From: Bacteroidota bacterium
Lineage (GTDB): Bacteria > Bacteroidota > Bacteroidia > Palsa-965
Reading direction: 5' to 3'
DNA length: 36,435 nucleotides
NCBI GenBank assembly: GCA_003153435.1
Contig: PLYR01000098.1
Coordinates: forward strand, 1-36,435
How positions within the stretch are numbered: position 1 is the first letter of the stretch; each line of letters starts with the position of its first letter. The translations under genes and the position numbers were made by a program. This document shows, one piece after another, positions 1 through 11,172 of this stretch. Below the pieces are notes generated by a model. The model was not told where the DNA came from and ran no database searches. It was given only the letters and a program-made list of their open reading frames with translations.

Positions 1-695
1 GCCCAGGAAACAAAAGAAAACTTGTATCCCTTGGCCGGGTTAAAGAAACAAACCAGTTTGTTTTTCGCAAATTCATCACCGGAATAAAAATCAAAATTCC
101 GACCAATCATCAGTTTGGAGTCGGCCGATTTGGAATTCCAAACCGAGAATGCGGTACATCCCACCGTCATATTCTTATCCTGCAAAGCATGGCCGATATC
201 ATGTGCCGCATGATAGTTTAGCATACGCTGGTATTTCGGCCCGATGTCATCGTAGAGATCGGATGCAGAGAGTGAGATTCCATAGATCTCTCTTTTGTAT
301 TCGTCTGTTACATATTCATCCAGATTCCGGTTAAAATAAGCCACAAAGTATTTCAGAAAGTTGAGGTAAGAACGGGAAGGCACGAGTTCCTGAATCTGAT
401 TAACAAAAGCAATTTCCTGCTTTTCGGCAAGCTCTTTGGTGAGCTTCCCATAGATTACTCCCCTTTCAAAATCATCGCCCTCCACATAGAGCTCCCATGT
501 TCCTGCAGCATTTTTCCGTAACCAGTTTCGGCCAATAGTATAAAAATCTTTACTCACTTCTTTGCGAACCAGCTTTTCAGAGCTCCGGTCTTCTATTTTT
601 GGAGGAAACTTAATGACTGCCCATGCAAAGTATCCAAGGAAGAGAAGGATAAGACCTAAGGAGATGAGGAAGAAACGTTTCAGGCTTTTGCGCAT
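1..695 (-). CDS. C45-type Ntn-hydrolase / acyltransferase-like protein, N-terminal part (cut by window edge)
   Basis: An open frame runs on the minus strand from an ATG at 695 to the window edge, giving the first 231 codons. Residues 5-24 form a hydrophobic membrane anchor or signal segment (FFLISLGLILLFLGYFAWA). The body contains Gly-Cys-Thr with Cys180, followed by SKLMIGRNFDF. A Cys that becomes the N-terminal nucleophile, followed by a GRNxD-type strand, is typical of the C45 / penicillin acyltransferase-like Ntn-hydrolases that cleave or transfer amide-linked acyl groups. The substrate cannot be told. The residue before Cys180 is Gly, as expected for autoproteolysis in this family. The C-terminus lies outside the window. 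A TACCTTTG element sits at 703-710, so the 5' leader must be very short. The family call is from motif recognition only. Confidence 0.72.
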   Translation of the reverse strand, partial: MRKSLKRFFLISLGLILLFLGYFAWAVIKFPPKIEDRSSEKLVRKEVSKDFYTIGRNWLRKNAAGTWELYVEGDDFERGVIYGKLTKELAEKQEIAFVNQIQELVPSRSYLNFLKYFVAYFNRNLDEYVTDEYKREIYGISLSASDLYDDIGPKYQRMLNYHAAHDIGHALQDKNMTVGCTAFSVWNSKSADSKLMIGRNFDFYSGDEFAKNKLVCFFNPAKGYKFSFVSW

Positions 696-702
696 GAGAA
701 TG

Positions 703-710
703 CAAAGGTA
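703..710 (-). promoter_or_regulatory. Bacteroidota -7 element (TACCTTTG)
   Basis: The minus strand reads TACCTTTG, a perfect match to the Bacteroidota primary-sigma -7 consensus TAnnTTTG, 7 nt before the ATG of the C45-like gene. I see no clear TTTG at -33. The expected start of transcription almost coincides with the start codon, so the message would be leaderless or nearly so. Confidence 0.5.
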
Positions 711-794
711 CAAAAAAACAGAGGGGTTCACGCCACCTCGAGCAGGTCCTTGTGAGTAAAAAGGTTGGCGCCACTCCTTTACTTGAAGGGTTGG

Positions 795-2315
795 CTATTT
801 CGTCTTGAACCGCTTCTTATCCTTTTTTGTAATCAGCTTTGCAATACTTCTTCCGGTACTGATGGCAATGGGAAGTCCTCCTCCGGGTTGGTTCCAGTGG
901 CTTGAATTATAGAAGTTGCGCAGTCCTGGAAGCTCATGCTGAACAGGTGATGGAGCCAGAAGGTTCTTTCCGGGCAGCCATCCTTGAGTACTTCCTTTCC
1001 AATTATTGGTATAGCGCTGAAAGGTAGCTGGGGTCGCTACATCTGTCATTTCAATTTTATCACGGATTCCTCCGAGACGCTTATCAAGGAGTGTAATTAT
1101 CTTTTCCTGAAACTCTGCTTTTGCCTGACGATATTTAGGTCTTTCATTCTTTCGGAGATTGATCCAGAATTCTCGGTTAGTAGTATAAAAGCTGACAGTT
1201 ACTACCGTCTTACCTTTAGGAGCTAAGGTAGGATCGTAATTATATATATGTACCTCGAGGCGTTTGTACTTTGTACCATCCGGGGAGATCAACTCCTCTT
1301 CAAGAGGGAAGCGTGAGAAATGAGGTGCATCCTGAAAATCTCCGTTAAGTCCGAATGAAAACTGCATGACCGAATAAAACACTTCCAGCTTTTTCAGGTC
1401 TCTTAGATCAAGGATTCCCTGATCGACATATTTTCCTTCCAGGGCTTCGAAAACGGTGTAGTACCAATCGGCAGCCGAAATAGTGATATCCGAATAATGT
1501 ATCTTATCATTCCTGACCAAAAGCCCTTTTGCCTCATTATTTTCAACAATAATTTTCTTGACCGGAGTCCGATAGTGTATTTTTCCTCCCAGTTCCAGGT
1601 AGCGCTGCTCCAATCTTTTTGCAAAACTCAAGGAGCCCCCTATTGGGTATCCTGCACTCTTTTTATCGAAACAGGAGAGTGGCATAGTGAGGATCATCAT
1701 ATTGACTTCCTCCCCGTCATAAAGAAGCTGGAAGCTCTCCTTCAAAAATGGGTTCTTCAGTTTTTCTGCTATTGTGAAATTGGTTTGCTTTTTCAGCTTC
1801 AGGAACCAGTAAAGAAATTCAAGATATTTCGACATTTTGATTCCCTGAATGATGGAAGGGATCAGCGGCAGATCGTCCATGACAGGAGGGAGATCAAACT
1901 TCTGCATAATACGCATGGGTTTGATAAAACTCTTTATGACTTTTGTGTCTTCAGGGGCAAGGTCTATGAGGTATTCCTGAAGGCGGGTGAGATTTGTGTA
2001 GAGATGGAAAATATTGCTCCCGTTTTTATCACGGGTCTTCTCTACTTCCAGCTCGAGTCTTTCGTCATGGTTTTTAAAAGGGATAACTTTCATATCCAGA
2101 AGTTCTGACCACATCTTGTAGAAAGAACTTCCCTCATCGGAACCCAGAATCCAATGCACACAACCATCTATCGTAAATTCACCTTTATGCCAGCTGGTAC
2201 AAAGCCCTCCGGGGATGGAGTGCTTCTCGAAAATTTCGGTTTCATACCCATTCATCTGCAGGTAGCAGCCGGCTGTAAGGCCCGAAATTCCTGCACCAAT
2301 GATATTGATTTTCAT
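795..2315 (-). CDS. FAD-dependent phytoene desaturase / retinol-saturase-like oxidoreductase
   Basis: This is a 506-residue flavoprotein of the CrtI / COG1233 family. The N-terminus carries the FAD dinucleotide-binding motif GAGISGLTAGCYL (residues 7-19), a Glu at the end of the second strand (EIFEKH) and the GGLCTSW loop. The C-terminus carries the second FAD-contacting segment (GGGLPIAISTGRSIA). Members of this family desaturate, isomerise or saturate polyenes such as carotenoids and retinol. No carotenoid genes lie nearby, so the substrate is open. It starts 55 nt downstream of paaE on the same strand and may be co-transcribed with it. An amine-oxidase-type activity is less likely. The family is secure, the substrate is not. 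Confidence 0.8.
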   Translation of the reverse strand: MKINIIGAGISGLTAGCYLQMNGYETEIFEKHSIPGGLCTSWHKGEFTIDGCVHWILGSDEGSSFYKMWSELLDMKVIPFKNHDERLELEVEKTRDKNGSNIFHLYTNLTRLQEYLIDLAPEDTKVIKSFIKPMRIMQKFDLPPVMDDLPLIPSIIQGIKMSKYLEFLYWFLKLKKQTNFTIAEKLKNPFLKESFQLLYDGEEVNMMILTMPLSCFDKKSAGYPIGGSLSFAKRLEQRYLELGGKIHYRTPVKKIIVENNEAKGLLVRNDKIHYSDITISAADWYYTVFEALEGKYVDQGILDLRDLKKLEVFYSVMQFSFGLNGDFQDAPHFSRFPLEEELISPDGTKYKRLEVHIYNYDPTLAPKGKTVVTVSFYTTNREFWINLRKNERPKYRQAKAEFQEKIITLLDKRLGGIRDKIEMTDVATPATFQRYTNNWKGSTQGWLPGKNLLAPSPVQHELPGLRNFYNSSHWNQPGGGLPIAISTGRSIAKLITKKDKKRFKTK

Positions 2316-2370
2316 TCAGGGGTATTAAGATAAACCGGCTTTCAAAAAGTAAGGGAGCGACAGTCCTGCT

Positions 2371-3438
2371 CTAGTCATAATCCACCACTACTTTTGGAGT
2401 GAGTGGGTGCGACTGGCAAGTGAGTATATATCCTTCCTTTACTTCTGAATCTGTGAGCGCATAGTTATTGTCCATTCGCACTTTCCCTTCCAGCAATTTA
2501 GCTCTGCAGGTACAACAGACAGCTCCTTTACAGGCGTAAGGAGCATCCACTCCTTCGTCAATCGCCTTATCGAGAATAACCATCCCTTCGCTGCTAAGAT
2601 CAAACTCGGTTTCTTTTCCATCCATAATCACAGTGACGTGACTCATCATACCGGAGCCATTCGAAGCTTCTGCTTTATTTACTGCATCGATAACAGCTGT
2701 AAAATATTCGATGTGGATCTTTTTATCATCCACTTTCCTTTCCTGAAGACTTTGTTTCACATTTTCCATCATTGGGCCAGGGCCGCAGATGAAGTACTCC
2801 GTATCTGCTCCAATGCCACTTTCGGCAGCCAGCAGGGCACTTGCTTTTTCTTTACTAAGTATACCTCTATTAATGGCATCAACCGATCCAGAAGGATTTT
2901 CAAGGACATGAGTAATTCTGAATCGGGCCGCATTGGAAAGAGAGAGATCATCGAGTGATTTCTTAAAAATGGCAGAAGCCTCATCTCTGTTCCCATAGTA
3001 CAAATGCATCGTGCTTTGGGGTTCATCCAGAAGAATCGTTTTGATTATGGAAAGCATCGGAGTGATCCCGCTTCCACCAGCAAAAAGTATGTAGTTTTTC
3101 TTTTTTCCTGCATCCATTGGTGTATGGAAGTTCCCCATCGGGGTCATCACCTCCATCTTGTCTCCGGCTTTTACTTCTCCATTCAGAAAGCCGGAACCTT
3201 TACCATCCTTTACCTTTTTGATAGCTATACGTAATTCCTTGTCGGCCGTGGGGCTACTACATAATGAATAAGAACGGCGGATCTCCTCTCCTTTTACCTT
3301 AAGTTTAAGAGTAAGATACTGCCCCTGAATATAATTGAACTCTTCCTTCAGGTTGTCGGGAACTTCAAATGCAATGGAAACACAATCGGCCGTCTCGCGC
3401 CTGACATCCGCTATCTTAAGGGTGTGGAATTTTGCCAT
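2371..3438 (-). CDS. paaE: 1,2-phenylacetyl-CoA epoxidase reductase subunit PaaE
   Basis: PaaE passes electrons from NADPH through FAD and a 2Fe-2S cluster to the PaaABCD di-iron epoxidase. Domains in order are an FAD-binding barrel (about 1-105, with RSYS at 55-58), a nucleotide-binding domain (about 110-235, GGSGITP at 121-127 and a CGPGPMM motif near its end) and a C-terminal plant-type ferredoxin (about 262-355). Cluster ligands are Cys303, Cys308, Cys311 and Cys341 (C-X4-C-X2-C...C). The order reductase then ferredoxin, 355 residues and the CKGAVCCTC segment fit PaaE better than a generic ferredoxin reductase. It lies about 28 kb from paaABCD, which is unusual since paaE normally follows paaD. 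A perfect -7 element is at 3456-3463. Confidence 0.88.
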   Translation of the reverse strand: MAKFHTLKIADVRRETADCVSIAFEVPDNLKEEFNYIQGQYLTLKLKVKGEEIRRSYSLCSSPTADKELRIAIKKVKDGKGSGFLNGEVKAGDKMEVMTPMGNFHTPMDAGKKKNYILFAGGSGITPMLSIIKTILLDEPQSTMHLYYGNRDEASAIFKKSLDDLSLSNAARFRITHVLENPSGSVDAINRGILSKEKASALLAAESGIGADTEYFICGPGPMMENVKQSLQERKVDDKKIHIEYFTAVIDAVNKAEASNGSGMMSHVTVIMDGKETEFDLSSEGMVILDKAIDEGVDAPYACKGAVCCTCRAKLLEGKVRMDNNYALTDSEVKEGYILTCQSHPLTPKVVVDYD

Positions 3439-3455
3439 ATCTGAATAAATATTTG

Positions 3456-3463
3456 CAAAAATA
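3456..3463 (-). promoter_or_regulatory. Bacteroidota -7 element upstream of paaE (TATTTTTG)
   Basis: The minus strand reads TATTTTTG, matching TAnnTTTG, 17 nt before the paaE start. No convincing -33 TTTG is seen. It is divergent from the plus-strand promoter at 3516-3523, so paaE and phenylalanine hydroxylase appear to be transcribed from back-to-back promoters. Confidence 0.5.
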
Positions 3464-3515
3464 TAATTTCTTCAGGATTTTCGTCGCTGCTTAGGCTTTA
3501 TTTCAAAAAATGTAA

Positions 3516-3523
3516 TACATTTG
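3516..3523 (+). promoter_or_regulatory. Bacteroidota -7 element for the Tyr leader / phhA transcript (TACATTTG)
   Basis: The plus strand reads TACATTTG, a perfect TAnnTTTG match, with a weak -33-like TTAG at 3491-3494 (21-nt spacer). It would start transcription near 3530, about 10 nt before the leader-peptide ATG at 3540, so the leader peptide and terminator lie inside this transcript. Confidence 0.55.
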
Positions 3524-3539
3524 TTTTAATACAAGACCA

Positions 3540-3620
3540 ATGAAGAAAATTCACAATAGCACTTATTATTATCCGGAGTCTACTCCCGGAACAGGTGTCT
3601 ATTGCTCTTTCTGCAGCTAA
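3540..3620 (+). CDS. 26-residue Tyr-rich leader peptide of the phenylalanine hydroxylase attenuator
   Basis: A short frame encodes MKKIHNSTYYYPES followed by 12 more residues ending CSFCS, with ATG at 3540 and TAA at 3618-3620. Three consecutive Tyr codons (TAT TAT TAT, 3564-3572) sit at residues 9-11, with another Tyr at 21 and one Phe at 24. It starts 17 nt after a promoter element and ends 20 nt before an intrinsic terminator, and the next gene makes tyrosine from phenylalanine. This is the layout of a classical ribosome-stalling attenuator: scarce Tyr-tRNA would stall the ribosome on the Tyr codons. A hairpin begins at the last Tyr codon (3572-3578 pairs with 3583-3590, one bulged C). The role is inferred from layout; I do not recognise a named leader family. 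Confidence 0.7.
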   Translation: MKKIHNSTYYYPESTPGTGVYCSFCS

Positions 3621-3640
3621 CTAACTAAAGATCATATGAC

Positions 3641-3671
3641 ATCCCGGTTCCAAAAGGACCGGGATTTTTTT
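3641..3671 (+). terminator. Intrinsic terminator (attenuator) before phenylalanine hydroxylase
   Basis: ATCCCGGT (3641-3648) pairs perfectly with ACCGGGAT (3658-3665), with CC/GG closing an AAAA loop after a bulged T, and is followed by seven T residues (3665-3671). It lies between the leader peptide and the phhA start at 3708. The gene on the other side, paaE, is transcribed away, so no upstream gene needs a plus-strand terminator here. The element TCCCGG at 3584-3589 could pair with CCGGGA at 3659-3664, and GGAAC at 3588-3592 with GTTCC at 3647-3651, either of which would disrupt the terminator. Confidence 0.82.
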
Positions 3672-3707
3672 ATTTCCCTAGTTTAACAAACATCAACACC
3701 CTAAAAA

Positions 3708-4439
3708 ATGAAACAGCACTATGACCATTACACCGCCGAAGATCGCCTGGTATGGCAGACCTTATTCGACCGGCAGATCAGGAACCTGGAAGAACATGCA
3801 TCCGAATCTTTTCTGGAGGCATTAAGGACGGTCGGGTTCAAAAGAGATGAAATTCCTGATTTTAAGAAACTTGATTCCGTTCTGGGTGGAATAACAGGTT
3901 GGAGCATGGAAGTGGTTCCAAGCATTATTCCTCAAAAGGAATTCTTTGATCTGCTTTCCGTGAAAAAATTTCCGGCAACCACCTGGTTGAGAAAGATGAG
4001 CGAACTGGATTATCTGGAAGAACCCGATATGTTCCACGATGTATTCGGGCACGTACCCTTACTGAGTAATGAGGCGTACACCAATTTCTTTCTGGGCATT
4101 GCGGCGCTGGCCAAAAAACATGCTGCAAATCCACGGGCTATCGAATTACTTGGAAGGATCTACTGGTTTACGATTGAGTTCGGCCTTATACGTGAACATG
4201 GGAAATTGAAAGTGTATGGGGCAGGGATTATTTCCTCTTTTGGAGAAACGATTTTCAGCCTGAGTGAGAAACCAGCACACCCTGATTTTGATGTGAAGGC
4301 GATCATGCGTTCCTCGTTCCGTACGGATGTCTTCCAGGAAAAATACTTTGTGATAGAATCGTTTCAGGCGCTTTATCACTCACTCGGAGAAATAGAGAAG
4401 GTGCTGGAGGAGGAGTTACAGGTCACTCCCGTTCTTTAA
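3708..4439 (+). CDS. phhA: Phenylalanine 4-hydroxylase
   Basis: This 243-residue protein is a pterin-dependent aromatic amino acid hydroxylase, converting L-phenylalanine to L-tyrosine with O2 and tetrahydropterin. The non-haem iron triad is visible: His110 and His115 in PDMFHDVFGHVP and Glu157 in FTIEFGL. The length suits the single-domain bacterial enzymes, which lack the N-terminal regulatory ACT domain of the animal protein. The start at 3708 follows an A-rich stretch without a Shine-Dalgarno, 37 nt after the attenuator T-tract. The Tyr-codon leader upstream suggests that here the enzyme serves tyrosine supply rather than only phenylalanine breakdown. Its 3' end overlaps the convergent T9SS gene by 17 bp. 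Tryptophan hydroxylase is much less likely in this size class. Confidence 0.92.
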   Translation: MKQHYDHYTAEDRLVWQTLFDRQIRNLEEHASESFLEALRTVGFKRDEIPDFKKLDSVLGGITGWSMEVVPSIIPQKEFFDLLSVKKFPATTWLRKMSELDYLEEPDMFHDVFGHVPLLSNEAYTNFFLGIAALAKKHAANPRAIELLGRIYWFTIEFGLIREHGKLKVYGAGIISSFGETIFSLSEKPAHPDFDVKAIMRSSFRTDVFQEKYFVIESFQALYHSLGEIEKVLEEELQVTPVL

Positions 4440-7400
4440 CCAATTTCACCTCATAGGCCTTGCCATTGGCATGCAGGGAGATGAAATAGATTCCGGAAGG
4501 CTGTTCACTCAGGTCAACCGGTGTTGAATTCTTTCCTTTGATGGAAGAAATTTCCCGGGTCATAATGAGCTTACCCTGATGATCATAAACATTCAGGTAA
4601 TCCACTTCCGAATCGTAGCAGTAGTAGGTAATATCCGAAAGATGAGTAGTAGGGTTCGGGTGAACACCGAAAGAGGCTTTGTCATTCGTAAGATCAAGAC
4701 TGACAATCTGGGAGCGCTTGTAATCTCCATTCAGATCGGTTTGCTTGAGACGATAATAAAAGACACCATTTTTTGCCGATGGGTCCAGCAGATGATAATT
4801 CAAAGGAACCGAGCTGTTTCCACCAGGGGCTTTCGAAGGAACGCTACCTATTGGATTGAAATTGATTCCGTCTTCAGAGCGTTCTACGGTAAAGGAGGAG
4901 CTGTTGGTTTCAGAAGCGGTAGCCCAAAGGACACGTGCTATATCTCCATCATATTTTGCGCTTAGAGAAAGCAACTCCACAGGAAGCGGGGCACAGTCAG
5001 AACTGACTGTTATGGTCGCTGTCAATGTTTGCCTTTCATTACAGCTACCGGTAACAATACAAGTATAGGTAGTGGTAGAGGCAGGCTGCACGGTAATGAC
5101 CTGGGTAGTTTCACCGGTTTGAGGCCAGTAATAAGAAGTGGCTCCAGCGGGCGCGGTCAGATTATCATTATCTCCAACACACATCGGATTGGAGTCCGGA
5201 ACAATTGCTGGGAATACCACACCCGAATTTACGGTGAGCGTATAGTTACATACATCAGCCGCAAAACCATCCACCATCAGCATATAGTCACTTCCGACAG
5301 TCAGGTTATCGATGGTCATTACAAAGGTGGTGGTACCTTCCAGAAAGGCGGATACCGGAACGAAATTGGTACATGCCGATTCGGAAAACACCTGAAATTG
5401 TGCGCCACCAGAGGGATAAGCCGCATTCTTATAACACTCTCCGACAGCCACGGTAATTACCACTTTTGTACTAGCAGCGGTAAAGCGAATCCAGGAATTA
5501 TTGTCAATGGTTACGTCGTACCGTCCGACGCCTTCCTCCAAACCTGCTTTGCTCGTATTGATATCTCCGGCTGCATCTTTTTTACCAAAGACACCCCCTG
5601 AATTTGCCCCTCCATTTGTTGCCCAACAACATACCTGGTCATTCCCTTTCATTTGAGTGGCCCCGGCACCCGGAAAGTCTGGCGTAAATGCGTTGCTTGT
5701 AGAGGCACTGTATCCGTTCAGGTCACAGACATAAAGGGCATTTGCGCAAGCGTCGTTTGTAGTGGTTTGTACACAGAGTCCGAATGGACCATCATTTGCA
5801 GTGCTAAATGCCCAGTAACGGATGTAATAAGTATTACCCGGTGTAAGTCCCGTCTGATTAATAAAGGGCAGCCATTGATTGAAAGGTACACTTCCAGGTC
5901 CATTCGGGAATCCAGCATTATCACTGGAACAATAAACCTGAGTTAATGCACCACAGGCTCCGCTATATAATGCCATGGAACCATCCTCGATCTCTCCTGC
6001 TATTTGGCCATAAGGCTCAGGGGTGATTGTTAATTGCCCGGAGGCAGGACAAACCACACTGAACCAGACGTCGTCCCCACCTCCCACAAATCCCGCACTA
6101 CCTCCAGAGCCTCCGATACATCCAGAGGGCACAGGAGGACCGACCGATTGTGTGGCGTGAAGATTCGTAAATCTCAGGTAATTACATGCAGTAGTAACTG
6201 CCGGGAGGGCAATAGCATTACAAGGTTGATCATTTGAAGGTATAACTGCTGCGGCAGGGCCATACACACAAATATTGAAGGTCTGCTGGGTTCCCAGATA
6301 ATCATAGACCCTTACATAATAAGTGTTTCCAACCGTTAAGCCTGCAAAATTATAGGTCTCTGTCCCTCCTGTTGCGAGCACATCTTCACATTGCATGGAA
6401 ACAAGCGCACCGCAAGCACCGGAGTATACCTGAAACACTGCATCCATGGTTGCCGAAGGGGTGACAGTGACGGTTGCCGAAGAATTGACGGCAACAAACT
6501 TATACCATACATCTGCAGCAGCTGTTCCGGAGCATCCGGCGGCTGAAGAGGTGGCATTTACTGTGGTACCAGCCGTATTGGCGCAGGCCACATTTACAGC
6601 TATAGCAATCGCACCGGCGCAATCATCATTTGCAGGTGGAGCCGGTGGCTGAGCGATACACATCGTAAACGCACCCGCTCCACCGGCAAAATCATAGGCC
6701 CGAACATAATAAGTGACTCCAACGGTTAATCCTGTCCAATTCATTACTTCTGCAACCCCGATCCCGTGCAAATCCTGACAGTGTAAAGACGTAAGTCCAG
6801 CACAATTGCCTGAAAACAATTCAATGACGGCATCCATTCCAGCGCTTGGAGTCATCGTAATCTGTGCTCCTGTGGATGTGGCTACAAACTTGTACCAGAC
6901 ATCAGATGTGGCTGTTCCGCTGCAACCTGTAATGTCAGGAGTAGCCCCGGTTGTATTTCCGGCAAAGGTTCCGCAGGCAGCGCCCTGGGTTTCGAGAGTT
7001 GCGTTCACACAATCGTCATTGGCTACCGCCGGAGCGGCACAAGTCAGAGCAAGGCTGAAAGCGCCTTTAGCTCCGCTGAATCCATCCACCATGATGTAGT
7101 AATTCGTTCCAACCGAAGTTGGGAAGGTAACCTGGGATTGAAAACCACAATAATCATCATTACCTGTCACACAGGCAAGGGCACCGCAGCTCCCGCTATA
7201 AACCTGAATTTCGGTATCAAAAGCAGCACCGCAAACACTCGCGGTAACATTCTGTCCGGTTCCGGCAAGCACATAAAACACACCCGGTGCTCCAGGGGTG
7301 AAACCACAATAAGTAGTAGGATCACCGGTAGTGGTAGCTAAGGTGGTATTACCCGCGTAAGGACTTCCGGCGCAAGTCACTGGGGTAGCACCGCTGCAAT

Positions 7401-7995
7401 AATCATTCGCAGGTCCTCCACTGGCGCAAGGGTAAGATGGCCAGGTCACATCATCTATAAAAATATAGGTACCATATTGGCTTACGGCATTTAAAACAAT
7501 ATACTCCGTGGCTCCTGTAATTCCGGCTGGAACAGCAAAGGTATATTGATTCCAGGTATTCGCTGCTGCTGCAGGAGCGCTTGTATTGGGCCGGTTCACG
7601 GTACCCAGTAAAGTAGCACCGGCGAGATTTGGAGTTGTATTAATATACACCTCCAAGCGATCCACTGAAGCAGTATACTGATTATCCCGGTACATCCAGA
7701 AACTCACCGAAAGGCCACCAACCTGACAGCCCAATGAAAAGGAAGGGGACACCAGGGTTGCATTTGATCCGGCAGCTGCATCATAAGAATCATAATAAGC
7801 ACCACCGGTTCCGGAATGGGTACCTGTAGTAAATTGTGCCCAGTCATATCCACCGGAGATAGCACCTCCACTCCAGGACGGGGGACGAAATAAATTGTCG
7901 AATGATTCTGAATTGGTTGTAGCCTGTCCTCTAGCTGAATAACATGCCAGCTCCAACAATAAAATAAATAAACCCGCTATTCTCTTCATGTTCAA
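4423..7995 (-). CDS. Large modular secreted protein with T9SS type A sorting domain
   Basis: A 1190-residue extracellular protein. Residues 1-24 are a signal peptide ending SARGQ. Residues 26-190 form a MAM / cleaved-adhesin-like beta-sandwich beginning SFDNLFRPPSWSGG. Five related modules follow (about 197-320, 326-447, 456-577, 587-742, 747-924). Most open with a N-D-x-C signature and contain D-V-W-Y-K-F or a relative, a YSG(A/S)CG strand and a closing G-x-(T/D)-YY-(V/I) strand. Next come an Ig/PKD-like domain (930-998), a fibronectin-III-like linker with SSFTVERSEDG (1004-1105) and a C-terminal type IX sorting domain (1108-1190, with VHPNPT and GIYFISL). The sorting domain implies export and cell-surface attachment or release. 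Low-complexity Thr, Ala and Gly and many Cys residues are typical of such adhesins. No enzymatic domain is seen. Confidence 0.85.
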   Translation of the reverse strand: MNMKRIAGLFILLLELACYSARGQATTNSESFDNLFRPPSWSGGAISGGYDWAQFTTGTHSGTGGAYYDSYDAAAGSNATLVSPSFSLGCQVGGLSVSFWMYRDNQYTASVDRLEVYINTTPNLAGATLLGTVNRPNTSAPAAAANTWNQYTFAVPAGITGATEYIVLNAVSQYGTYIFIDDVTWPSYPCASGGPANDYCSGATPVTCAGSPYAGNTTLATTTGDPTTYCGFTPGAPGVFYVLAGTGQNVTASVCGAAFDTEIQVYSGSCGALACVTGNDDYCGFQSQVTFPTSVGTNYYIMVDGFSGAKGAFSLALTCAAPAVANDDCVNATLETQGAACGTFAGNTTGATPDITGCSGTATSDVWYKFVATSTGAQITMTPSAGMDAVIELFSGNCAGLTSLHCQDLHGIGVAEVMNWTGLTVGVTYYVRAYDFAGGAGAFTMCIAQPPAPPANDDCAGAIAIAVNVACANTAGTTVNATSSAAGCSGTAAADVWYKFVAVNSSATVTVTPSATMDAVFQVYSGACGALVSMQCEDVLATGGTETYNFAGLTVGNTYYVRVYDYLGTQQTFNICVYGPAAAVIPSNDQPCNAIALPAVTTACNYLRFTNLHATQSVGPPVPSGCIGGSGGSAGFVGGGDDVWFSVVCPASGQLTITPEPYGQIAGEIEDGSMALYSGACGALTQVYCSSDNAGFPNGPGSVPFNQWLPFINQTGLTPGNTYYIRYWAFSTANDGPFGLCVQTTTNDACANALYVCDLNGYSASTSNAFTPDFPGAGATQMKGNDQVCCWATNGGANSGGVFGKKDAAGDINTSKAGLEEGVGRYDVTIDNNSWIRFTAASTKVVITVAVGECYKNAAYPSGGAQFQVFSESACTNFVPVSAFLEGTTTFVMTIDNLTVGSDYMLMVDGFAADVCNYTLTVNSGVVFPAIVPDSNPMCVGDNDNLTAPAGATSYYWPQTGETTQVITVQPASTTTYTCIVTGSCNERQTLTATITVSSDCAPLPVELLSLSAKYDGDIARVLWATASETNSSSFTVERSEDGINFNPIGSVPSKAPGGNSSVPLNYHLLDPSAKNGVFYYRLKQTDLNGDYKRSQIVSLDLTNDKASFGVHPNPTTHLSDITYYCYDSEVDYLNVYDHQGKLIMTREISSIKGKNSTPVDLSEQPSGIYFISLHANGKAYEVKLVKERE

Positions 7996-8014
7996 TTTTT
8001 CAGATCAGACACTG

Positions 8015-8383
8015 TCATTGTTGGTCGATAGGCTGAAATGATATTCCGATTACATCGTAACCAAAACCACCCAGAATTTTTTTCACTCTTACTGCATCAA
8101 AGACAGGACGGGATTCAGGATCGTCAAGCTTTTCACGTATACTCAACATGATTTCTCCTGTATTATTTTCAGGCTTAAAACGAGGTTTGAATTGTATCAC
8201 CCCAGGCAAGGCTGAAATGGAATCTCTCACCTTTTCAACATCGCTCAATGATTGAACTCCATGGAAGGAGATATAACAAATCGAACGATCGGTATGCTGA
8301 GGACTTACACTTTTTCTCTGAGCAGTAATTTGTCCCACTCCGATGATGAAAATAAATAAGAAAAGAGGAATAATTTTTTTCAT
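8015..8383 (-). CDS. Small secreted protein, possible HMA-like ferredoxin fold without metal Cys pair
   Basis: The frame could extend back to 8437, but I prefer the ATG at 8383 because it places a clean signal peptide at the N-terminus (MKKIIPLFLFIFIIGVGQITAQ), giving 122 residues. The mature part contains a strand-helix-strand pattern (ICYISFHGVQSLSDVEKVRDSI then GVIQFKPRF) and ends with a second helix and strand, as in heavy-metal-associated-type folds. The Cys-x-x-Cys metal motif is absent. It ends 19 nt before the large T9SS gene on the same strand, so the two are probably co-transcribed. The function is unknown; the fold suggestion is weak. Confidence 0.6.
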   Translation of the reverse strand: MKKIIPLFLFIFIIGVGQITAQRKSVSPQHTDRSICYISFHGVQSLSDVEKVRDSISALPGVIQFKPRFKPENNTGEIMLSIREKLDDPESRPVFDAVRVKKILGGFGYDVIGISFQPIDQQ

Positions 8384-8588
8384 CTGGACAAGGTTGTAGA
8401 CAAAATTCAAGAAGGCAAGTATGATACTTGCTTTCAAAATAATGTCACGCTAAATATAAAACGATTGAGTAGTTGGTCTTAAGTAATAAGCTAATGTACG
8501 TTATTTCTTTCTCTGTTACGAACTATTGAATCAAATGTTTCGCTTTTAGCGACTTCCAATTTTAATATATTGTTAACAAGACAAGTTA

Positions 8589-8604
8589 ATAGCCTTAGGG
8601 CTAT
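8589..8604. other. Perfect hairpin downstream of the DUF5686 gene
   Basis: ATAGCC (8589-8594) and GGCTAT (8599-8604) form a perfect 6-bp stem with a TTAG loop. It lies 34 nt past the stop of the minus-strand DUF5686 gene. No T-tract follows on the minus strand, so it is not a convincing intrinsic terminator. The rest of 8438-8637 is AT-rich and shows no gene. Confidence 0.35.
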
Positions 8605-8637
8605 GAATATCAACACATTAGAATGAACTAAATCGGA

Positions 8638-11172
8638 CTAGAGCATGAACTGGAGAGAAACTTTGATTCCCCAGTTTTTGATCCCGTAACCCGGGTTCTG
8701 GGAGGCATATTGCGTTATGTATTGGGAGTCGTTATAAGTGGCCCGGTAGATAAAATCAAAACGGAGAATGTCGAAAATATTAGTGATTCCGGCTCCAACT
8801 TCCACATAAGGTTTCTTATTCAATTCACTAAAGAGATTATTCTGATTGAAGTCACGGTTATTACTGCTTAAGGAGCCATATACAGCATTACAGGTAACCA
8901 CTTCCCTCAGATTCCACTTTTTGATGAGTGGAAGGCGGTTAAAGACCAGTCCCATGAAATAATGCTGCACATGCAGTTCCACAAACTGGTCGCTTACAAA
9001 CTCGAAATAATTCATCTGGTTAAAGGCTGTTGAGGAATAAAATGGTGTTTCATTTCCCCGATGTATTTCAAGTAATGTATAGGGCACTGCGGAAAAAACC
9101 TTTCCTGCGGAGATGGAATAGCTCGTACTGCCGAGTATTCCCCACTTTACAAGCTGACTCACGGAGAAGGTGAGTTTATGATATTCAAAATCGCTTCCAA
9201 AAAGGTTTTTGATGCCCATGGTATAATTAAAATCGAATACGGGCTTCTTGGAGGAACCGAATTTCATACGCTCATTACCGTTCTGAATAAACAGATCACC
9301 CATGGATAAACGGGTATCGAATACCAGTTCTGTAATGGAATAATTTTTCTGCTGAAAAATATTGAATGGATCATTTCCAAAAGTAAATGGGAACAGTGGA
9401 AAGGTTCTGACATTCTGGAAGGTGATTCGTTCTGTGAGTCCTTTCGTCACTTCTGTTTCATACCATGCACGGGCTTCATTTTTACGAACGAACTGCCGGA
9501 GATCTCCAAAAGCATAACTGGTGTTATAGAGTGCATTGTTTGCATTTCCAATGGTCTGTCCGGTTGAATAATCAAAGGCTGTTCCGACCCGCTCTACATC
9601 GTCTCTATATTCTATACCGGCTTTAGTCCAAGGAAACCGGGAGATGATTTTTTCGAGTTGAAGATTATATTTCCAGCCTTTATCCTGAAATCCATAAGCC
9701 CCATATCCTCTGAAGATCCAGCTTTTGCTGACCTTATTGTTTGTCCGGAATCCAAGCCTTACCCTATTCCCTTCATAGCTGTTATAAGAATAGGCATTAA
9801 TATAGTGGCCGAGATCGATCGGCCCTACGGTGACATAACCCATGAATAAAAAATACAAAGTATTCACCCCTCCTTTGATAATTGGAATCATCCGTACGGT
9901 ATCTATTACCTGAAAATTCATAGCCTCCAGCTTAGACAAAGGCTCGGGCCGGAGAGAATCCCAGTAGGTATTCCTCTTGAGCAATGCGTCTTCTGCAAAA
10001 TCGGTATTCTTTTCAAAGAACTCCCCGGTCATCGGTTGATCCACGACATATTCTGAACTATTCTGATAAATCTTCTGAACCATGCTCACGAAATTTTCAG
10101 TGAGGTCGACATAATCAATAAGGATCCTTGTTTTCGAAGGCATCCATGGACCGGCCGAAGTGGGAATCAGTTCCTGTTGAATATGGACCCTTTCAACGAG
10201 ATCGAAGTTGGCTTCTTTCGGGATTTCCAGATCCACTTGCTTGAGTACCCATGAACTGTCAGCAATCCAAATGAACCCTGTAAACGCGGCGTCATGGATG
10301 TTTCGTGGCATCACATTAATTTTATAGGTATATCGTGTCCCTGTTAATGCGCTGTCTATTAGGTAATATCTATAGAAATTCATTGCATTGTCAGCCAGAG
10401 GTGAGAGGAACGGTTTCTTAAGAATATCTACATTATCACTGTAGAAATTATAATTGTCGAAATCAGAGCCGGTGAGCTGTGAGGCAGCACTCCCATCTTT
10501 CTTTCCCACAAAGTTCATGTGAATGGCTTTCACATTCTCCCTCTTCTTACGCGGGTCTTTCTGATAATAAACATCTGAAACTACTTCTGCAAAATAGACA
10601 GGAAGGTTGGCCTTACTATCACCTGCAATGACATCCATACTGTCGTACATACTAACCAGCGGGTGAAAGATTGGCCATCTCCTGATTTTTTTAGTCATAT
10701 TATCAATATCCGCTTCTGTCTTCGTGTAACTTTTGTAGTGAATATGATTCAGGCTTTCCTTGTCGTATTTCTTTTTGTTGTCGATAGCATTTTGAACTAT
10801 TCTCAAAGCCGGGTTTATTCCCGGATGGATAACCACTCCTTCCAGCATCTTGGAATCCTTCACAAGCTGGAAGTCTACTATCTGCACCTTTTCTGTATTC
10901 CTGATTTTTTTACTTCGTGCCCGATAACCCAGGTATCTGGCAGTTAAGGAATCTGTGAGGAAGGTACTTTTAAGTACATAATATCCTTCAAAATCTGTTG
11001 TCGTTCCTGAAAGAGTTCCTTTGAAATACACATTGACATAAGGCATGCCGTCGTTCGTTCCGAACTCCGTCACCCTTCCCCGGAGGGTAATTTCCTGCTG
11101 TGCGTGCAGGTATAATCCTGAAAAACAGCACAAGAGAAGAAAACAGATATGCCGGAGTCTGGGGAGAAACAT
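8638..11172 (-). CDS. DUF5686 family outer-membrane protein with carboxypeptidase-regulatory-like domain
   Basis: An 844-residue envelope protein. Residues 1-25 are a signal peptide (ending LYLHAQ). Residues 28-110 are a carboxypeptidase-D regulatory-like beta-sandwich (ITLRGRVTEFGTNDGMPYVN, then GTTTDFEGYY). The remainder matches the DUF5686 family of the Bacteroidota: a periplasmic part with the NAIDNKKKYDKESL helix, then a long stretch of alternating amphipathic strands (about 440-844) expected to be an outer-membrane beta-barrel, ending NWGIKVSLQFML. The architecture resembles TonB-dependent transporters but there is no plug domain. The biochemical role is not known to me. It is divergent from the TPR gene at 11293. 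Confidence 0.82.
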   Translation of the reverse strand: MFLPRLRHICFLLLCCFSGLYLHAQQEITLRGRVTEFGTNDGMPYVNVYFKGTLSGTTTDFEGYYVLKSTFLTDSLTARYLGYRARSKKIRNTEKVQIVDFQLVKDSKMLEGVVIHPGINPALRIVQNAIDNKKKYDKESLNHIHYKSYTKTEADIDNMTKKIRRWPIFHPLVSMYDSMDVIAGDSKANLPVYFAEVVSDVYYQKDPRKKRENVKAIHMNFVGKKDGSAASQLTGSDFDNYNFYSDNVDILKKPFLSPLADNAMNFYRYYLIDSALTGTRYTYKINVMPRNIHDAAFTGFIWIADSSWVLKQVDLEIPKEANFDLVERVHIQQELIPTSAGPWMPSKTRILIDYVDLTENFVSMVQKIYQNSSEYVVDQPMTGEFFEKNTDFAEDALLKRNTYWDSLRPEPLSKLEAMNFQVIDTVRMIPIIKGGVNTLYFLFMGYVTVGPIDLGHYINAYSYNSYEGNRVRLGFRTNNKVSKSWIFRGYGAYGFQDKGWKYNLQLEKIISRFPWTKAGIEYRDDVERVGTAFDYSTGQTIGNANNALYNTSYAFGDLRQFVRKNEARAWYETEVTKGLTERITFQNVRTFPLFPFTFGNDPFNIFQQKNYSITELVFDTRLSMGDLFIQNGNERMKFGSSKKPVFDFNYTMGIKNLFGSDFEYHKLTFSVSQLVKWGILGSTSYSISAGKVFSAVPYTLLEIHRGNETPFYSSTAFNQMNYFEFVSDQFVELHVQHYFMGLVFNRLPLIKKWNLREVVTCNAVYGSLSSNNRDFNQNNLFSELNKKPYVEVGAGITNIFDILRFDFIYRATYNDSQYITQYASQNPGYGIKNWGIKVSLQFML

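Follow-up and report, generated by a model that had tools for sequence, protein, structure and literature searches.

The window analysed here is a stretch of 36,435 nucleotides from a Bacteroidota bacterium (contig PLYR01000098.1), in which phhA, the gene for phenylalanine hydroxylase, is preceded on the plus strand by a short reading frame and an intrinsic terminator. The original prediction for this locus, made from the sequence, had described a −7 box, a 26-codon frame with TAT TAT TAT, a hairpin at the last Tyr codon and a terminator with seven T residues leading into phhA, with paaE divergent from it. All of these parts were found again in the sequence, the hairpin lying directly after the last Tyr codon. 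The features of the locus are:

2371..3438, minus strand: paaE-like ferredoxin reductase gene (open reading frame; PF00175/PF00111/PF00970; TIGR02160 at 395 bits, slightly under the cut-off of 420.8)
3516..3523, plus strand: −7 promoter box TACATTTG, a perfect match (6/6) to TAnnTTTG
3540..3620, plus strand: leader peptide frame MKKIHNSTYYYPESTPGTGVYCSFCS, 26 codons and TAA, seen in the sequence; a frame of this kind is conserved in 60/65 terminator-bearing phhA loci
3564..3572, plus strand: putative regulatory codons TAT TAT TAT (Tyr 9–11), seen in the sequence; a Tyr run also stands before phhA across families
3573..3589, plus strand: 1:2 hairpin predicted by RNA folding to sequester the antiterminator arm, beginning directly after the last Tyr codon
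3588..3599, plus strand: predicted antiterminator 5′ arm GGAACAGGTGTC, pairing with 3638–3651 (−14.7 kcal/mol) and covarying in the swap test
3638..3651, plus strand: predicted antiterminator 3′ arm, common to the terminator 5′ arm (folding and swap test)
3641..3671, plus strand: intrinsic terminator, a stem of 10 pairs (3641–3665) followed by seven T (3665–3671)
3708..4439, plus strand: phhA, phenylalanine 4-monooxygenase (PF00351, 161 bits; NF008877, 264.6 bits, above the cut-off of 247)

Thus the order on the plus strand, 5′ to 3′, is −7 box, 26-codon frame, 1:2 hairpin, terminator and phhA. Because the paaE-like gene is divergent, it cannot use a terminator on the plus strand. Profile scores place the gene at 3708–4439 in the PhhA family, and its product resembles solved bacterial enzymes, e.g. 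1ltu. The 3′ ends of phhA and of a long minus-strand gene (4423–7995) overlap tail to tail by 17 bases (4423–4439). With its 10 pairs, the terminator in front of phhA is the strongest among the terminator-like sites in positions 1–9000, and the leader RNA folds better than its shuffles (z −2.98). No Rfam family, amino acid leaders and T-box included, matches the window at curated thresholds; at loose thresholds the best sub-threshold matches are unrelated. In Flavobacterium the −7 box sits at −12 to −5 (PMC9723704), and transcription of the window leader is therefore predicted to start at 3528, which gives a 5′ UTR of 12 nt before the leader frame.

The antiterminator of the window consists of 11 bp (GGAAC:GUUCC, GG:CC and UGUC:GACA) between 3588–3599 and 3638–3651, and it engages the 5′ arm of the terminator only. 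Duplex energies are −17.8 kcal/mol for the terminator, −14.7 for the antiterminator and −7.5 for the 1:2 hairpin. The original prediction had counted competing pairings of just 5–6 bp and had called the antiterminator the weakest part of the proposal; both statements have to be revised, since the pairing is longer than had been thought and, on the swap test described below, belongs among the stronger parts. When the RNA is folded with a ribosome at the first, second or third Tyr codon, the antiterminator forms (−17.2 kcal/mol) until the 3′ arm of the terminator has been made. A ribosome placed at the leader stop codon leaves the terminator only, and the full-length RNA folded without a ribosome forms the 1:2 hairpin together with the terminator. 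As the complete terminator outweighs the antiterminator in stability, the outcome must be decided by kinetics, which is also the case for known attenuators.

We compared the regions upstream of phhA in loci that came from named genomes as well as from whole genomes (relatives and other members of the class); a locus entered the counts if 450 bases or more lay upstream. A terminator precedes phhA in 65 of 114 loci. Among these 65, 60 show a short Tyr-rich or Tyr/His-rich frame ahead of the terminator (5% in dinucleotide shuffles), 36 have three or more Tyr within five codons (1.6% in shuffles) and 29 a Tyr-Tyr-Tyr frame (0.3% in shuffles). Leaders such as NTYYYYYLSAP (L007), SKYYYYYYYRI (L056, Fulvivirga), QYYYYYQES (L089) and NNYYNYYPVP (L091) illustrate the pattern, and TSYYYYGPASG precedes a phhA whose product is just 30% identical (L155). 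The comparison with relatives, which the original prediction had proposed as a check, favours the attenuator. The same prediction had held that relatives keeping phhA without the Tyr run or the terminator would speak against it. Such relatives do exist, as about 45% of the phhA loci are without the element, including genes some 64–65% identical that have neither leader nor terminator (L003, L106), but the parts are rarely missing singly: of 49 loci without a terminator only 3 have a Tyr-dense frame and 46 lack both. Co-occurrence of terminator and Tyr frame gives a Fisher p of ~2e-22, which is no strict probability as the loci are related. Absence of mostly both parts together looks like loss or gain as one unit. 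On the PhhA tree the state of the element changes about 20 times, and at least 8–11 of these changes are forced by well supported branches. Judged by these loci, the phhA leader element is widespread and has often been lost or gained.

Pairing between leader and terminator was examined in 43 non-redundant leaders by a swap test: the sequence downstream of the last Tyr/His codon was paired with the 5′ arm of the terminator, and the energy of the duplex was evaluated. The mean is −12.5 kcal/mol for native pairs, −9.05 when arms are exchanged among species and −7.2 for shuffled stretches. The native mean was reached by 0 of 20,000 permutations (z −10); z is −8.4 when Cyclobacteriaceae are left out and −2.85 inside the His/Tyr leaders of that family. 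By this measure, the antiterminator covaries with the 5′ arm of its own terminator across the leaders. No signal was obtained with the terminator 3′ arm (−7.55 native vs −7.20 swapped, 43 leaders). The segment freed by stalling had been expected to pair with either arm of the terminator; of this expectation the 5′ arm holds and the 3′ arm does not. In the 43 leaders the antiterminator arm begins a median of 12 nt past the last Tyr/His codon, which is where a ribosome stalled on these codons would end.

The position of the −7 box hints at the way in which many of these leaders may be translated. In 19 of the 43 leaders a box with at least 5/6 matches ends exactly 4 nt before a start codon of the leader frame (L005, L007, L018, L025, L031, L090, L108, L120 and L146 among them), and any other spacing occurs in 0–6 leaders. 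If the box occupies −12 to −5, a spacing of 4 nt means that transcription would begin on the start codon itself, and leaderless mRNAs are predicted for these loci. The pheA leader of the window's genome has the same 4-nt spacing; the spacing of the window's phhA leader is 16 nt, not 4. Leaderless mRNAs make up 5.5% in F. psychrophilum (PMC9723704).

The genome of the window carries further leaders whose codons correspond to the gene downstream, each followed by a terminator. These are MNKNLTLNHHHHLLKTVG with the run NHHHH at hisG (L166, on the same contig just past the window end), MKKLNNLNNNRWWLFSVS with the motif RWW at trpE (L175) and MKNKGLTLSSYYFFFFGTIHGG with the motif SYYFFFF at pheA (L161); relatives likewise have cognate leaders at hisG, trpE and pheA. 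Judging from these motifs, the Tyr leader of phhA is in keeping with the His, Trp and Tyr-Phe leaders as one cognate series of this genome. The codons match the product: Phe is present in the pheA leader, and the clusters of the 43 phhA leaders contain 165 Tyr, 40 His and 0 Phe. A Tyr-run frame directly upstream of tyrA was found in 0 of 30 Bacteroidota loci. Since the codons follow the product and the tyrA loci have no such frame, the element is tied to phhA and would respond to tyrosine, the product, rather than to the substrate. A search of the window's own genome for a Tyr run combined with a T run gave 10 matches against 8 with a reversed control, and by eye no other leader with a terminator was among them.

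In Cyclobacteriaceae (Algoriphagus, Echinicola, Litoribacter) His is mixed with Tyr in the cluster, e.g. MNPTPRTFVHHSYYHLQ, and the antiterminator logic is the same. The motif HHS is kept across the phhA leaders of Algoriphagus (loci include L021, L022, L036, L049 and L061), some of which begin with GTG. Mixed His and Tyr leaders are also present at L015, L017 and L035. TyrA is present in all four genomes of family f15 that were scored with a His/Tyr leader in the class sample (G104, G135, G271, G312).

Taken together, a frame lies between promoter and gene, it holds a run of cognate codons, a terminator follows, the antiterminator covaries and its arm begins where a ribosome stalled on those codons would end. 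We consider it very probable (about 0.93) that the element is a ribosome-mediated transcription attenuator of the classical type, which would sense charged tRNA-Tyr and control phhA as a gene of tyrosine biosynthesis. The tyrosine-sensing logic of the original prediction is thereby upheld, supported by the Tyr-run frame, the terminator and the covarying antiterminator across Bacteroidota families. From the frame, Tyr run, covarying pairings, terminator, cognate gene and parallel leaders, all present in the sequence, we infer the dynamics as follows. Transcription would begin near 3528. With ample tyrosine, the ribosome would move on past the Tyr run in the direction of the stop codon and cover 3588–3599, the terminator would form and RNA polymerase would halt before phhA. 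If Tyr-tRNA runs short, the ribosome would stall at 3564–3572 and mask the 5′ arm of the 1:2 hairpin; the freed 3588–3599 could then pair with 3638–3651, so that no terminator forms and phhA is transcribed. An untranslated leader would form the 1:2 hairpin as well as the terminator, and transcription would stop.

Other explanations of the same features have to be weighed. The short frame might encode a functional Tyr-rich small protein whose mRNA is ended by the terminator, without relation to the control of phhA. In favour of this, the frame does exist, frames of its kind are conserved, and some close relatives share a similar peptide ending, GTGVYCSFC. Outside close relatives, however, the Tyr run alone is kept and most leaders vary in length from 13 to 27 residues, while the RNA segment past the run covaries with the terminator and the frame is tied to phhA and missing from all 30 tyrA loci, which makes a small protein very unlikely. 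A chance arrangement of terminator and Tyr run, with phhA driven by another promoter or by read-through, would agree with the 45% of loci that do without the element; it is hardly credible given the co-occurrence of the two parts (counted over loci that are related to each other) and the swap test, in which no permutation reached the native mean.

It is also conceivable that the leader responds to more than tyrosine, such as a slow-down of translation at NAY codons, which are read by queuosine-dependent tRNAs (those for Tyr, His and Asn). The abundance of His in the clusters (40 against 165 Tyr) and the HHS kept across Algoriphagus would be in line with such a signal. A codon preference is not seen, however: the ratio TAT:TAC is 116:49 in the leaders and 66:31 in the window genes. 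In addition, Tyr dominates the Tyr-type leaders of many families, that of the window included, and we regard the wider signal as highly improbable. The classical tyrosine attenuator remains our preferred reading. A wider reading, in which cognate leader-peptide attenuators for His, Trp, Phe/Tyr and Tyr occur throughout the phylum, many of them on leaderless mRNAs, and phhA of Cyclobacteriaceae is under a dual His-plus-Tyr sensor, is a tentative proposal that we would place below even odds.

Bacterial PhhA is usually regarded as catabolic. A leader that reads Tyr would be regulatory evidence for PhhA as a tyrosine-making enzyme in these Bacteroidota. The window's genome has pheA (prephenate dehydratase), and no match to TyrA (PF02153) above threshold was obtained in this 98% complete genome; TyrA was also undetected in ~81% of the class sample. 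We considered whether absence of TyrA would prove PhhA to be the sole route to tyrosine and rejected this as a general claim: phhA and TyrA show no anti-correlation across the 345 class genomes, TyrA being found in 13/54 genomes with phhA and 53/291 without it (p 0.35). Most of the ~81% of class genomes without a strong-scoring PF02153 are also without a short phhA. Three near-complete genomes of the window's family (G005, G006, G009), the three that are without phhA, have no detectable phhA, pheA or TyrA and are probable Phe and Tyr auxotrophs, as judged by gene content. The window's genome also has 4-hydroxyphenylpyruvate dioxygenase, and a catabolic share for its PhhA is therefore possible. 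On certain defined media that lack tyrosine, PAH is important for the fitness of Echinicola vietnamensis (PMC7311316); the His/Tyr leader is found in other species of this genus (L015, L028, L035). The leader is a sequence mark that may tell tyrosine-making phhA genes from catabolic ones.

Leader-peptide attenuation is textbook knowledge for trp, his, pheA and other operons, and translation initiation in Bacteroidota does not rely on Shine-Dalgarno sequences. Our results indicate that attenuators of the classical type operate in Bacteroidota in the absence of such reliance, often from predicted leaderless starts, which bears on ribosome-polymerase coupling in this phylum. A survey from 2010 stated that amino acid leaders had earlier been known from Proteobacteria and Actinobacteria only, and added Firmicutes (PMC2965389). 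A search of open-access articles brought up neither a leader specific for tyrosine nor one at phhA.

Several described systems come close. The aroR leader of Corynebacterium glutamicum (Phe-Tyr-Phe) resembles the phhA leader as an aromatic leader peptide with a regulatory Tyr codon, but it lies upstream of aroF (DAHP synthase) and responds to Phe only, not to Tyr (PMC11802643). For Flavobacterium psychrophilum, of the same phylum, 'strong clues' for leader peptides at amino acid operons have been reported and the same general mechanism proposed; the available text of that paper names neither a tyrosine leader nor phhA as a target (PMC9723704). Attenuators before some tyrA operons are predicted in the Merino database, as quoted in PMC1173090. 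They share with the phhA leader tyrosine synthesis genes as targets and differ in the enzyme, TyrA, whose Bacteroidota genes are those without a Tyr-run frame. Closest in design are the classical trp, his and pheA attenuators of Proteobacteria (trp also of Actinobacteria), which like the phhA leader combine a run of product codons, a 1:2 hairpin, a shared 5′ arm, a terminator and a cognate gene. From these the phhA leader differs in its tyrosine signal, its target phhA and its Bacteroidota host; the phhA leaders of relatives are often predicted to be leaderless, and the window matches no Rfam family at threshold. As far as found, neither a tyrosine-reading attenuator nor one on phenylalanine hydroxylase has been described before, and the element would be new in amino acid, gene and phylum and classical in mechanism.
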